Position numbers and translations under genes: made by a program. Source: a virus. From it: a stretch of 59,970 nucleotides of DNA. Below, piece after piece: positions 42,037 through 56,390 of the stretch; position 1 is the first letter of the stretch, and each line of letters begins with the position of its first letter. Below the pieces are notes generated by a model. That model ran no database searches and was not told where the DNA came from. It was given only the letters and a program-made list of their open reading frames with translations. The stretch is taken from positions 1 through 59,970 of the IMG/VR virus record IMGVR_UViG_3300044953_000493. One strand, given 5' to 3'.

Positions 42037-42152
42037 TTGAGTTTCAGTTTGAGTGATTGAAGCACTTGTTTGCGAGATTTAAGTTTTCCTTTACAAATTC
42101 CTTTTGTATTCTTTTGTTTTCCAGAGTTGTGTTGCCAGTTTGGTGTTCTCAT
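42033..42152 (-). CDS. 39-aa very basic small protein
   Basis: RTPNWQHNSGKQKNTKGICK followed by GKLKSRKQVLQSLKLKLK: about one third Lys/Arg, one Cys. It overlaps both neighbours through ATGA junctions (42149-42152, 42033-42036), which makes translation plausible despite the small size. Possibly nucleic-acid binding; no family recognised. Confidence 0.55.
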   Translation of the reverse strand: MRTPNWQHNSGKQKNTKGICKGKLKSRKQVLQSLKLKLK

Positions 42153-42403
42153 CGTGAATAACTCTTTGCGATTTGTTTCATAACATTACGTGCCGATAAC
42201 ATAAACTGATAGGGAGTCGATAACATAAACTGATAGGGAGTCACATTTTTAGAATCATAAGAGTCGTTGAAGATGTTCGCAAAAACATCAGTTTGATTAA
42301 AAGTGTTCACAATCAGAGCACAAGCATCATAGAGTGCTGCCTTGTGCTCCTCTTCAGACTTGAAAGAAAATTCAGCCATTGAGGAAAAACGATTGGAGTT
42401 CAT
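42149..42403 (-). CDS. 84-aa hypothetical protein with 8-aa internal duplication
   Basis: AEFSFKSEEEHKAALYDACA and LIVNTFNQTDVFANIFNDSY, then TPYQFMLS twice in tandem. The first ATG abuts element copy 5; Met9 (42379, before AEFSF) is the alternative start. First gene of a four-gene operon with ATGA-type junctions. Function unknown. Confidence 0.65.
   Translation of the reverse strand: MNSNRFSSMAEFSFKSEEEHKAALYDACALIVNTFNQTDVFANIFNDSYDSKNVTPYQFMLSTPYQFMLSARNVMKQIAKSYSR
42194..42241 (-). repeat. 24-bp tandem duplication within a gene
   Basis: Two identical 24-bp units (42194-42217, 42218-42241), in frame, encoding TPYQFMLS twice. Confidence 0.9.
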
Positions 42404-42441: not shown

Positions 42442-43290
42442 TTAAGATAAAGCATTCAACAGCGGATTGATAGTCTCAGTGTACGCGGTGACTGTGACAC
42501 GATTCTCAATTCTGCGAGTGCAAATATTGTAATACTTTTCATCAATCTCAAAACCAATATAGTTTCTGTTGGTTTCAATGCAACAAACAGCAGTTGTTCC
42601 TGCTCCCATAAAAGGATCTAGAACCAAATCACCTTCATTACTCCAGGAGAGAATGTGATCTTTTGCAAGTGCCTCTGGAAAAATAGCAGGATGCTCAAAT
42701 GCCGCATCATCTTTTGATGAATAATTCTTTCCTGTGTTATATTTCCAGATATTATTACGTGGACTAAACTCTGGAATAGGTTTAATGTTGCGTTCAACCA
42801 AAGATCCATCTTTGGCACGAATCGTACCTTTACCAAAGTGAGTATAACCTACCCAACGATTTTGCTTGTCACAGAGCAGATTTGCAGTCTTTGGTTTTGT
42901 TTTTTTAGAAAGGACAAACATATACTCAAATACTTGAGAATACCTGTTACCATCTCTACGAGCAGGAAATGGACTACCATTTTTTTCATAGATCATGGTA
43001 TCATGCAAAACAAATCCAAGATTCATAAAATGTAGTGCTTGGCGAAAAGAACTACCAGTTTCGCTAGATTTAATTACAGCATCTCCCACAACCCAAACAA
43101 CAACTCCACCAACTTTCATGACTCGATAGAGTTGTTGTGCTACTTTCTTAAATGATTCATAATTCCATGAAGAACTGTTATTATAGGAACGAAGATCGTC
43201 ATAAGGAGGAGAAGTAACGCACAAGTCGATCACTTCATTCTCCAGAGTCTTCATTCCATCAATGCAATTTGAAAGAATGATTTGATTCAT
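42442..43290 (-). CDS. DNA methyltransferase (N4-cytosine/N6-adenine, beta class)
   Basis: 282 aa. Catalytic motif IV is TSPPYDDLRSY at residues 26-36, and the AdoMet-binding motif I is LDPFMGAGTTAV near residue 225, followed by RNYIGFEID. Motif IV before motif I is the beta arrangement. The sequence VMKVGGVVVWVVGDAVIKSS and a HPAIFPEALAKDHILSWSNE stretch are typical of phage methylases. SPPY favours N4-cytosine or N6-adenine modification; the target site cannot be read. Its start overlaps the stop of the nuclease gene by four bases, so methylase and nuclease are co-translated. Confidence 0.9.
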   Translation of the reverse strand: MNQIILSNCIDGMKTLENEVIDLCVTSPPYDDLRSYNNSSSWNYESFKKVAQQLYRVMKVGGVVVWVVGDAVIKSSETGSSFRQALHFMNLGFVLHDTMIYEKNGSPFPARRDGNRYSQVFEYMFVLSKKTKPKTANLLCDKQNRWVGYTHFGKGTIRAKDGSLVERNIKPIPEFSPRNNIWKYNTGKNYSSKDDAAFEHPAIFPEALAKDHILSWSNEGDLVLDPFMGAGTTAVCCIETNRNYIGFEIDEKYYNICTRRIENRVTVTAYTETINPLLNALS

Positions 43291-43940
43291 GCTGCAGGTT
43301 CAAACTGAAGATATTTACCGTTGCGATTGGGAAGACGAAAGTTCCCCCATGCAACTTGTTCCTTGACTTTATCATAATCATTCACAGAAATCAAGAGTAT
43401 AGTGCGAGAATTGGATTTAGTTGCACTACCACGACGAATCAAATTAAGATTATCAAAAACACCAATAAAGATCTCATCAATCAAATTAACATGTCCCGAA
43501 ATAACTTGAAATACATTAGCATTTTCATTGATACCATATTTGATGCCAATGAAATCAATTAAATCATCCTCTTTTTTTGAAGCATGAGTAGAACCAGTCC
43601 AAGAATTTCTTCCACTGGTTCCTTTAATTTCCCAAATTACACCTTCAATCGTTACATCTCCAAAAGAAGTACGATATTTTTTGACATTAAACTTATCGGC
43701 AAGAGCACAGGTAAGAACAGACTCAAGAATACGTCCAAGATAAACAAAAACTTCATTACGATCCTCTGAACCAAGTTCAGAAAATTTGATTTGATCAGTA
43801 TCAATGACTTTTTTTGCAAGTTCACGATTAAGATTGCGAAAAATCGGACAATAACGAATGTCTTTATTCAATTCTTTAAGAATTGATTTTACAATCCTAG
43901 AATCAGCAAAGAAGTCACGAATGTCAGTAGAAAGAGTCAT
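43287..43940 (-). CDS. Probable type II restriction endonuclease (PD-(D/E)XK)
   Basis: 217 aa. RTSFGDVTIEGVIWEIKGTS gives a D95...E104-x-K106 arrangement of the PD-(D/E)XK fold, preceded by a helix with Glu (YLGRILESVLTCALADKF). NSWTGSTHASKKEDDLIDFI resembles a segment I know from type II endonucleases accompanying phage methylases. The gene overlaps the methylase start by four bases, the classical layout of a restriction-modification pair. Alternative: a modification-dependent or recombination nuclease. All presumed catalytic residues are present. Confidence 0.72.
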   Translation of the reverse strand: MTLSTDIRDFFADSRIVKSILKELNKDIRYCPIFRNLNRELAKKVIDTDQIKFSELGSEDRNEVFVYLGRILESVLTCALADKFNVKKYRTSFGDVTIEGVIWEIKGTSGRNSWTGSTHASKKEDDLIDFIGIKYGINENANVFQVISGHVNLIDEIFIGVFDNLNLIRRGSATKSNSRTILLISVNDYDKVKEQVAWGNFRLPNRNGKYLQFEPAA

Positions 43941-44673: not shown

Positions 44674-45867
44674 TCATCTTTTAATGGTAGAAATTGCAGG
44701 TTGTCCATCACGAAATACCGTATCAACAACTGCCTGCACTTTGCGTGAGGTACTGATACCAACATTGTCATACACAGGTACACAAACCAGACCAAACTTT
44801 TTGGTTTCGTCACCCAAACGAATCACTCGTCCAATGCTCTGACTGAATCCAATGTAGTCCATATTTCGCATAAACAATACTGCTTCCAATCCAGACACAT
44901 TGATACCCTCAGACAGAATGCTATGATGTATCACAACGAAACGCTTACTGCTATTCTTACCCCAAGCATTGAGAGTATCGAAGAATACTTCACGATTCAC
45001 TTTTTTACCATCAATGATTGCACCAGTCTTGGCAGTGATATACATCCAAGAGTAATCAAGTTCTTGTAATCGAGCACAGAAATTTGATTGAGACACAAGG
45101 CCCATAATCTGCTTGGTAGAGCGAGCACAAATCAAAATCTTATTGAGATTCTGATCATAAATCGTTTCCATCAGATTGTCAGCATCACGTTGAAAAATCA
45201 TCTGACGATCTGAAATCATAGGTAGTTGCTTGATGACAACTTTAGGAGGTAATATGTAACCCTGTTTGACTAACTCAGGAGCAGGAACTTGACAAATAAC
45301 CTGATCATAAACCTCAGAAAGATTCATTCCTGGTTTAGATATTGTGTTGGAATGTTTCGGCGTTGCAGTAAAGAAATAACAACGATTCGCATAAGCACTG
45401 AAGTGTTCAGTTGCAGGAAAAAAGTGACTCTGAACGCTGTTATGTGCCTCGTCAAAGTAGATCGTATTCACATCAATCTCGGCATTCACCAGACGCGAAA
45501 GAGAGTGATAGGTAGTGAATAATAACTTATGATGAGATTTATGACTCTCTACCCAAGCACGAATTTCTGTGGATCGAGTAGATGATTGATGATGAGTTTC
45601 ACCGCTGTGAATGTGAAATACTTGTGCATGAGTGATAAACTCTAAAAACTCACTGGATAACTGTTCTGCAAGCAAAATACGCGGTGCCACAATCACAATC
45701 GTCTGTGGAGTTTCTGATTGAAACTCTCTGATACAATCTGTAATCATTGTGAGAGTTTTACCGCCACCAGTTGGTACAATCAACTGACCTCTATTGTGTT
45801 TCTGCATGGCATCAACACCACGAATCTGATGAGGACGCAGTTGAATGTTCATTGTGTTGTGATTCAT
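44674..45867 (-). CDS. SF2 (DEAD/DEAH-type) helicase
   Basis: 397 aa. Walker A is VPTGGGKT (residues 31-38), motif II IYFDEAH (136-142), motif III YFFTATP (164-170), then ILSEGINVSGLEAVLFMR and the arginine-finger motif VI FSQSIGRVIRLGD (341-353). RPHQIRGVDAM is the Q-motif-like start. Length and order fit the compact type-III-restriction/UvsW-like helicases common in cyanomyoviruses; T4 UvsW itself has an extra N-terminal domain that is missing here. ATG at 45867 abuts element copy 6; Met6 (45852) is the alternative start. Likely role: replication, recombination or branch migration. Confidence 0.9.
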   Translation of the reverse strand: MNHNTMNIQLRPHQIRGVDAMQKHNRGQLIVPTGGGKTLTMITDCIREFQSETPQTIVIVAPRILLAEQLSSEFLEFITHAQVFHIHSGETHHQSSTRSTEIRAWVESHKSHHKLLFTTYHSLSRLVNAEIDVNTIYFDEAHNSVQSHFFPATEHFSAYANRCYFFTATPKHSNTISKPGMNLSEVYDQVICQVPAPELVKQGYILPPKVVIKQLPMISDRQMIFQRDADNLMETIYDQNLNKILICARSTKQIMGLVSQSNFCARLQELDYSWMYITAKTGAIIDGKKVNREVFFDTLNAWGKNSSKRFVVIHHSILSEGINVSGLEAVLFMRNMDYIGFSQSIGRVIRLGDETKKFGLVCVPVYDNVGISTSRKVQAVVDTVFRDGQPAISTIKR

Positions 45868-45892
45868 ACTATAAGAACACTTTTGAGGGCCC
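45868..45892 (-). promoter_or_regulatory. GGGCCC/TATAGT element, copy 6
   Basis: Minus strand GGGCCC (45887-45892), TCAAAAGTGT core, TATAGT (45868-45873), directly before the helicase. Confidence 0.65.
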
Positions 45893-45908
45893 AGAGTTGA
45901 TTCAATCT

Positions 45909-46106
45909 TCACGAGTTCGAATAACTTAAGATCTTAATTTGTTCTCGAATCTGAAGCATTGCGGTACGACTATATCCTACTGCATAAGGATAAGATAGTT
46001 CTGTCAGTGTAGATTTAGAATCTACATTGTTGCACACATTAATTGCACTCTCAAGTCCCTCAATTAGAGTCTCCAGAGTTGTAATCGGAACATTCACAGT
46101 TTTCAT
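45909..46106 (-). CDS. 65-aa conserved cyanophage protein
   Basis: KTVNVPITTLETLIEGLESA, INVCNNVDSKSTLTELSYPY and AVGYSRTAMLQIREQIKILS. The pattern NVPxTTLExLIExLE...SYPYAxGYSRxAM is a small family I recall from cyanomyoviruses. ATG lies about 18 bases downstream of the -10 of element copy 7, a proper leader. Function unknown; two-helix protein likely. Confidence 0.78.
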   Translation of the reverse strand: MKTVNVPITTLETLIEGLESAINVCNNVDSKSTLTELSYPYAVGYSRTAMLQIREQIKILSYSNS

Positions 46107-55116: not shown

Positions 55117-56289
55117 TCAGGGTTGAGAAAGAGTTAGACAATCACCATCAGGGTCAAACTTGATGTTTTTGCCGTATACATCGACAAGACCCTCTTCGGT
55201 AGGACGACCTTTATCTTTAGGATTTGGTTTGGTATATTGACCCATGAATCCAGCAAGTTTCACAGGAAAATTTTCCTCATCCAAAGAACTTGACTGTCCA
55301 TCACCAACAATGTTATTGGCAAATTGTACAAACAATTCCTTTATATCATTGAAATCTTGAATATAATCCTTACGGAATTCTTCAAGATCATCAACACGAT
55401 TAGGAGAATAACCAATAATCCATGCAGGAATTCCTAGACGCGTAGCATGTGCAATACAACGAGCCCAAGTTGATTTGTTATCACCATTCCCTGCACAATA
55501 AATGATGCAACCTTGCTCAATCAACTCTTTGTCAGTGCGCTCTTCAATACCTTGCTTAGCAAATCCATGATTCTTAATGAATCCATTCAAAGTATTGTCC
55601 CCATGACCAGTGGAGTTGTAAGTACGGAAGTTAGGAAATACCTGACAGGTATTGTAGCAAGAATTTTTGATGCGTCGACGAACTTTTGCAGTCTTATCAG
55701 AAGCAATCAAATCAACAAAACTGTCGATAGAAGATTGATCAGAAGGAACAACACCTGCATCAACAGCGTTGCAGACTTCTTTTTGATAATCGCGCCAAGT
55801 CTGACTCAGTTGCGGATTGCTGTGGTGATTTGATTGGTTGCGAGCAACAATCTCCCAGTAGCGACTTTCGAAGTGATAAATATCGAATAAATAGCATTCC
55901 TGCCCAATACGATCAAGGGCTTCCCTACGATTATATCCAGCGAGACCTTTCAATTTAACTTTGCTAGCATCAGAATCATCAAAACATGTGATAGGTGGCG
56001 TTGCGTCACAACGATAACCAACGGTTTCGTAGTTATTTGTCAGGTTATTAACATGATCCGAATCATTATTTTTATCACGCGGTTGCTCCGATTCATCGTA
56101 TCGAATAAAATTAATAGGAATCAGATAACGACCCAGATGCTTAGATCCTTGATAATCCATCGGAGGAGCTTGTTTAATACTTTGTCGAAGAATTTGCTCA
56201 TCCAATCCCAGAGGATTGCTACAAGTCTTCAGTATTTTTGCCCAAACCATCAAGGTCTCGACGGAAACATAGTGTGTTTTTGGTTGCAT
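55117..56289 (-). CDS. ParB/sulfiredoxin-like domain protein
   Basis: 390 aa. Residues about 95-160 (VKLKGLAGYNRREALDRIGQ, ECYLFDIYHFESRYWEIVAR, NQSNHHSNPQ) resemble the ParB-N/Srx fold: GxxRxxAL followed by an AR-x-QSN segment comparable to the ParB Arg box. The C-terminal half (DKELIEQGCIIYCAGNGDNK, STWARCIAHATRLGIPAWII) is an alpha/beta domain I cannot name. The frame extends upstream to a TTG at 56370, but the consensus promoter (56362-56390) lies there, so ATG at 56289 is chosen. Possible roles: DNA binding, nucleotide hydrolysis or DNA modification. Confidence 0.62.
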   Translation of the reverse strand: MQPKTHYVSVETLMVWAKILKTCSNPLGLDEQILRQSIKQAPPMDYQGSKHLGRYLIPINFIRYDESEQPRDKNNDSDHVNNLTNNYETVGYRCDATPPITCFDDSDASKVKLKGLAGYNRREALDRIGQECYLFDIYHFESRYWEIVARNQSNHHSNPQLSQTWRDYQKEVCNAVDAGVVPSDQSSIDSFVDLIASDKTAKVRRRIKNSCYNTCQVFPNFRTYNSTGHGDNTLNGFIKNHGFAKQGIEERTDKELIEQGCIIYCAGNGDNKSTWARCIAHATRLGIPAWIIGYSPNRVDDLEEFRKDYIQDFNDIKELFVQFANNIVGDGQSSSLDEENFPVKLAGFMGQYTKPNPKDKGRPTEEGLVDVYGKNIKFDPDGDCLTLSQP

Positions 56290-56361
56290 TGAAGTTACAT
56301 AAAGTAAAGTTTCAAAGTGACTCAACAAAAGAACTAAGTTCTCTTTGTTTGAATCAAGGGT

Positions 56362-56390
56362 ATCATACAAGAATTTAGAACTCTCGTCAA
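56362..56390 (-). promoter_or_regulatory. Sigma-70 promoter TTGACG-17-TATGAT
   Basis: Minus strand TTGACG (56385-56390), 17-bp spacer, TATGAT (56362-56367), giving a leader of about 65 bases before the ParB-like ATG. Confidence 0.65.

Follow-up and report, generated by a model that had tools for sequence, protein, structure and literature searches.

The nuclease and methyltransferase locus

The window, by which we mean the whole 59,970-nt stretch analyzed here (IMG/VR virus record IMGVR_UViG_3300044953_000493), is a contig of a cyanobacterial virus, T4-like in its baseplate and neck proteins. Two overlapping genes on its minus strand had been proposed, from the letters alone, to form a restriction-modification pair, and both open reading frames were confirmed. 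The upstream gene (43287..43940) encodes a 217-aa protein, R, predicted to be a PD-(D/E)XK restriction endonuclease with the site GGTC/GACC. The residues that had been singled out as its active site are present in GDVTIEGVIWEIKG, with D95 encoded at 43656..43658 and the E104-x-K106 motif at 43623..43631; a further acidic residue, E73, is encoded at 43722..43724. The downstream gene (42442..43290) encodes M, a 282-aa beta-class amino-methyltransferase. As had also been pointed out, the nuclease gene ends four bases into the methyltransferase gene: the R stop and the M start share the bases ATGA (43287..43290), an overlap geometry that occurs in relatives as well (e.g., contigs L003 and L004).

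A helicase gene is located near the pair (44674-45912); an annotated helicase is also present in Syn1, a cyanophage without the pair. Directly downstream of M (42149-42403) is a small open reading frame with a short tandem duplication, STPYQFMLSTPYQFMLS. In other contigs a ParB-like gene often adjoins R and/or M (L001, 6782-7774; L251, 1-923; L096, 2948-3946; L105, 2895-3995). This identity is annotated in Synechococcus phage DSL-LC02 and in Anabaena phage A-1(L) and was assigned by eye in the other contigs. The window open reading frame at 55117-56370 is also ParB-like by eye, yet lacks a PHROG match.

Predicted structure and relatives of the nuclease

Relatives of R were identified in IMG/VR (31 proteins, 54-98% identity) and GenBank (one, from DSL-LC02). 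Pfam, PADLOC and NCBIfam contain no match to R, and its matches in PHROG and the PDB are at chance level. Searches of GTDB genomes with the alignments of R1 (the subfamily that includes R) and R4 (a divergent subfamily described below), and of plasmids with R1, recovered no relatives. E73, D95, E104 and K106 are invariant in the 29 aligned R1 copies, and a WTGSTH-like stretch is almost invariant. Purifying selection acts on both genes (dN/dS 0.10-0.18; ~0.13-0.18 for the window R compared with its L003 and L004 relatives).

An AlphaFold model of R (pLDDT 88.1, pTM 0.86) resembles type II restriction enzymes. Foldseek ranked EcoRV and NaeI first (best E 6e-3), and structural realignment gave Z scores of 10.3 over 154 residues for ThaI (3ndh), 9.5 for NaeI, 8.1 for DpnI and 7.8 for EcoRV. 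With these enzymes R shares a predicted fold over nearly all of its 217 aa and an E-D-ExK active site. The Foldseek E values are modest, and most Z scores are near the level that the tool terms common. No similarity was detected at the sequence level: phmmer with R1 found no match to the EcoRV, ThaI or NaeI families, and whereas EcoRV and NaeI recognize palindromes, the site inferred for R is an asymmetric 4-bp sequence. PDB matches of a profile of R1 and its divergent relatives (R1-R4) to Tako8, which are designed proteins, covered only 17 positions and were discarded; the only other match was one chain with E = 1. R is a single domain without helicase or HsdS matches, and thus the nuclease includes no ATP-dependent motor and no separate specificity subunit.

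The structural evidence supports a type II restriction-enzyme fold with a PD-(D/E)XK core, as a prediction without an assay. Absence of such a core, or membership in a non-nuclease family, would have refuted the sequence-only reading, and neither outcome was obtained: the model matches solved type II enzymes, and the catalytic residues do not vary among the aligned copies. Further down the structural match lists are Holliday-junction resolvases and a homing enzyme. Their presence would suit a structure-specific PD-(D/E)XK nuclease of the resolvase or homing type that rides with the methyltransferase and has no GGTC specificity, the loss of GGTC then having another cause. The best matches are, however, restriction enzymes of type II aligned across nearly the whole chain, and evidence from a related pair (see below) also bears on this point.

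The methyltransferase and its nuclease partners

M matches PF01555 (N6_N4_Mtase, E 2.9e-45), the only PF01555 match in the window. Its catalytic motif IV, TSPPY (residues 26-30; 43201..43215), precedes the SAM-binding motif I, DPFMGAGTT (residues 225-233; 42592..42618), and therefore M belongs to the beta class. Because the PDB relatives of M include both N4-cytosine and N6-adenine methyltransferases, the identity of the modified base is undecided.

The best-scoring PADLOC model for M is an "orphan methyltransferase" (oMTase PDLC03714, E 1.4e-89). M fails the criterion for an orphan, which is the lack of a cognate restriction enzyme, in that a nuclease-like gene overlaps its start. The label is probably wrong for methyltransferases of this clade. 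A complete pair had been supposed to be unusual in cyanophages; this supposition was not borne out, as a nuclease-like partner occurs just upstream of the methyltransferases of Syn9, S-MbCM6, P-TIM40, S-H35 and S-RIM4, which had been filed as orphans or annotated alone. Two other candidates were rejected: the methyltransferases of Anabaena phage A-1(L) and Microcystis phage Mel-JY01 are ~48-52% identical, but the genes upstream of them are unlike R.

Overlap or adjacency of R and M was found again in independent viral contigs. In most contigs in which M was found, it directly follows R; the order is reversed in L021 and L025, and in G003 and G018 M is at a distance from R on the same contig. 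The expectation that R comes with a companion methyltransferase thus holds for the window and the recurrent contigs, but not throughout: some phages encode R without a detectable methyltransferase. In the complete 168-kb genome of DSL-LC02, R is present and no PF01555 methyltransferase was found. Absence of M is firm only for this phage, and there only for PF01555, as most other contigs are fragments. G004 encodes R without M in 94 kb, and G023, from the same metagenome (3300030708), encodes M without R. Thus, the two may be parts of one phage genome; GGTC observed/expected ratios are 0.02-0.04 in both.

A search that started from M showed that the same methyltransferase subfamily also accompanies nucleases that share only 23-31% identity with R. 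These nucleases form three further groups, R2-R4, so that four nuclease subfamilies occur beside one methyltransferase subfamily. The R2-R4 proteins that were tested matched no known family. Positions that stay invariant across the R1-R4 alignment include the E, D and ExK residues (E73, D95, E104 and K106 of R) and a T-H and N-S core.

Depletion of GGTC in carrier genomes

Word counts on both strands were compared with those expected under a maximal-order Markov model. In DSL-LC02, GGTC/GACC is the only tetranucleotide that is entirely missing, with 0 sites against 465 expected. The zero held on either strand when the sequence was joined and the circular junction was included. DSL-LC03, from the same lake and family, has 483 GGTC sites; the two phages group together in published trees (PMC10611076). 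Palindromic scans of DSL-LC02 had first suggested GGWCC as the site, and the full tetranucleotide table identified the core GGTC as the real signal. As GGTC was first spotted in DSL-LC02, which also provides the strongest value, the remaining carriers and the controls constitute the test.

Every nuclease carrier of useful length is depleted in GGTC. Pooled observed/expected counts are 12/1168 for R1 carriers in which no methyltransferase was found (DSL-LC02 included), 16/164 for those with M apart from R, 183/647 for those with M adjacent, and 231/1064 for contigs with a divergent nuclease and M. Twelve cyanophages without this nuclease have 3430/3707 (0.75-1.08 in each). When all 136 tetranucleotides were compared between nine R1 carriers and eleven non-carriers, only GGTC separated the groups completely with a large effect (mean ln difference -2.98; -0.15 for the next word). 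We regard this purge as independent evidence that the pair acts sequence-specifically on DNA.

The window itself, with 67 sites against 123 expected (0.55), is the mildest case among the longer R1 carriers. Two residues of its R that shortly precede the catalytic Asp95 are unusual: Tyr89 (43674-43676) replaces the Asp89, and Phe93 (43662-43664) the Ser/Ala93, of almost every relative; only the near-identical contig L002 shares both residues. Given these substitutions (D89Y, S93F) and the mild depletion, this copy of R may be weakened.

Depletion also extends to carriers whose fragments encode M but yielded no R (163/853). Thus, except in DSL-LC02 and the other fragments without a methyltransferase, depletion cannot separate the effect of R from that of M. 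It tracks both genes, and evidence that they have one common recognition sequence is only indirect. The depletion of these M-bearing carriers would be expected if methylation by M rendered the site hypermutable, so that GGTC was lost by mutation. We consider this scarcely tenable, as the loss is total in DSL-LC02, whose complete genome encodes no identified PF01555 methyltransferase. In that phage the loss occurred at the DNA level, through synonymous codon choice, and no GGTC remains at coding positions able to hold one: the counts, compared with those in DSL-LC03, are 0/363 vs 47/335 for aspartate GAC before C, 0/343 vs 30/279 for valine GTC after G, and 0/261 vs 158/321 for glycine GGT before C.

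Restriction by a host enzyme that targets GGTC, with M as an anti-restriction methyltransferase and the upstream protein as an accessory or unrelated factor, must also be considered. Avoidance of host restriction sites is common in phages, several cyanophages without the pair have likewise lost CCGG and GTAC, and the PADLOC assignment of M as an orphan would be consistent with such a role. Nevertheless, we find this explanation improbable. Related cyanophages that have no R, among them DSL-LC03 from the lake of DSL-LC02, show normal GGTC counts, and the purge is strongest where R is present and M was not found. Moreover, the pattern recurs with the divergent nuclease subfamilies, including on a contig of very different composition (G051), and the upstream protein has a predicted restriction-enzyme fold with invariant catalytic residues.

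Several other words were examined. CCGG was rejected as the site of R, as it is lost in many cyanophages but does not track R, and the degenerate sites GRYC and GWWC were ruled out for R by the lack of GATC depletion in carriers. M could still recognize a degenerate palindrome of this kind (GRYC or GWWC). CCGG is wholly missing from the examined stretches (L073-L076, L196-L198 and others) of P-SSM2, S-PM2, Syn9, Syn1 and S-SSM7, and GTAC is missing from Syn1 (0/151); CCGG counts in the window are normal (34/29). We attribute the CCGG and GTAC losses in cyanophages to other, unexplained restriction pressures. G051 (L241-L244), a 72-kb viral contig that is CCGG-rich, encodes an R4-type nuclease and M, and GGTC is its most depleted word (0.25).

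A related pair associated with loss of GAAC

Syn9, initially included as a control, was an odd outlier for GAAC. Its methyltransferase, gp62, is overlapped by the "hypothetical" gp61, which belongs to phrog_11812, a family of unknown function. Syn9 gp62 and its counterparts in S-MbCM6 and P-TIM40 are in the same family as M (~54% identity), with phrog_11812 upstream in the same gene order. Five more isolates with a pair of this type were then examined (S-MS29, S-H35, S-RIM4, P-TIM40 and S-MbCM6). Across the six, GAAC/GTTC observed/expected ratios are 0.06-0.28, vs 0.95-1.04 in eleven controls; GGTC is normal to slightly low (0.77-0.98, with 0.75 in Syn9). Pooled counts for 38 IMG/VR loci with a Syn9-type nuclease are 286/1569 for GAAC and 1162/1236 (0.94) for GGTC. 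Because the GAAC signal was first seen in Syn9, the test consists of the five additional isolates and the 38 loci; these phages include close relatives and are not all independent. AGCC, AGCT and GGCC are near zero, beside GAAC, in many Syn9-type contigs (L276-L328).

The predicted fold of the gp61 family (pLDDT 88.6) has NaeI as its best match (Z 9.9). The profile of this family and that of R1-R4 can be aligned (E 1.2e-6, probability 91%); the match runs through the ExK and T-G-x-x-H-S stretches. With a profile built from R1 only, the gp61 family was not found, as the divergence is too great for R1 alone to align. By profile similarity and predicted structure, the Syn9-type nuclease is a remote relative of R1-R4.

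The losses are doubly dissociated, in that R1-R4 carriers lose GGTC and Syn9-type carriers lose GAAC, not GGTC. Thus, exchange of the nuclease and methyltransferase together changes the lost word, which argues also against a structure-specific nuclease that only accompanies the methyltransferase, an explanation that we now consider very unlikely. The predicted fold, the invariant catalytic residues and the GGTC purge in carriers together support the original proposal of a restriction-modification pair. Although no activity was measured, we are confident, short of certainty, that R and M constitute a phage-borne, type II-like pair with the asymmetric site GGTC/GACC.

Proposed mechanism and biological role

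Cleavage of GGTC by R, methylation of GGTC by M and the blocking of cleavage by cognate methylation are inferred, as are the modified base and the biological role. We propose that R cuts or nicks unmodified GGTC and that M may modify this sequence within the phage genome. The phage could protect itself by methylation, by purging sites, or both, and R probably leaves the viral DNA alone and attacks GGTC elsewhere. Asymmetric recognition is a feature of Type IIA/IIS systems, which often have two methyltransferases or one that reads a degenerate palindrome (PMC4081073). R, in contrast, was seen with a single methyltransferase. Unless M recognizes a degenerate palindrome (e.g., GRYC), replication of a non-palindromic site with one methyltransferase may yield one daughter duplex without modification. 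This could be the reason that M-bearing phages still purge GGTC, and prior loss of the sites may be what has allowed some phages to lose the methyltransferase. Other possible reasons for continuing depletion in M-bearing phages are leaky protection and a recent acquisition of M.

The closest parallel known to us from the literature, and from the literature only, is with the restriction-modification systems of chloroviruses (CviAII, CviJI, Nt.CviPII and others), which are also virus-borne, with adjacent nuclease and methyltransferase genes and short sites of 2-4 bp, some of them asymmetric (PMC7019647). Chloroviruses are NCLDVs of algae, whereas the carriers described here are tailed phages, some of which lack a methyltransferase and have purged the site instead. 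Degradation of host DNA has been proposed as the function of the short-site chlorovirus restriction enzymes, which were not responsible for exclusion (PMC7019647). By analogy, destruction of host DNA early in infection would be the likeliest role for R, with exclusion of competing phages ranked second. That the same enzymes serve mainly in exclusion of rivals, or as an addiction module, is compatible with a restriction-modification pair and remains possible, if not favored. Most other cyanophages examined retain GGTC and would be cut, and the use of different sites (GGTC or GAAC) by different phages fits rivalry. Against this, the restriction enzymes of the chlorovirus analogue were tested for exclusion and did not account for it (PMC7019647).

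The literature within our scope, which did not extend to subscription journals and preprints, yielded no account of GGTC sites in cyanophages or of such a pair. The analysis suggests a function and two testable recognition sites for proteins of model cyanophages (e.g., Syn9) that are annotated as "hypothetical" or of "unknown function". A set of phage methyltransferases now called "orphan" should probably be reclassified as parts of restriction pairs. Enzymes of ~200 residues for non-palindromic 4-bp sites would be unusual reagents. DSL-LC02, whose complete 168-kb genome contains a matching nuclease gene and zero copies of a 4-bp word, clearly exemplifies a virus with a whole genome adapted to its own weapon. 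We think it somewhat likely, with less assurance than for the pair itself, that tailed phages have restriction enzymes with asymmetric 4-bp sites (GGTC, GAAC) and that some, such as DSL-LC02, have lost the methyltransferase and erase every site. Such phages would distinguish self from non-self by sequence content, not by DNA modification.
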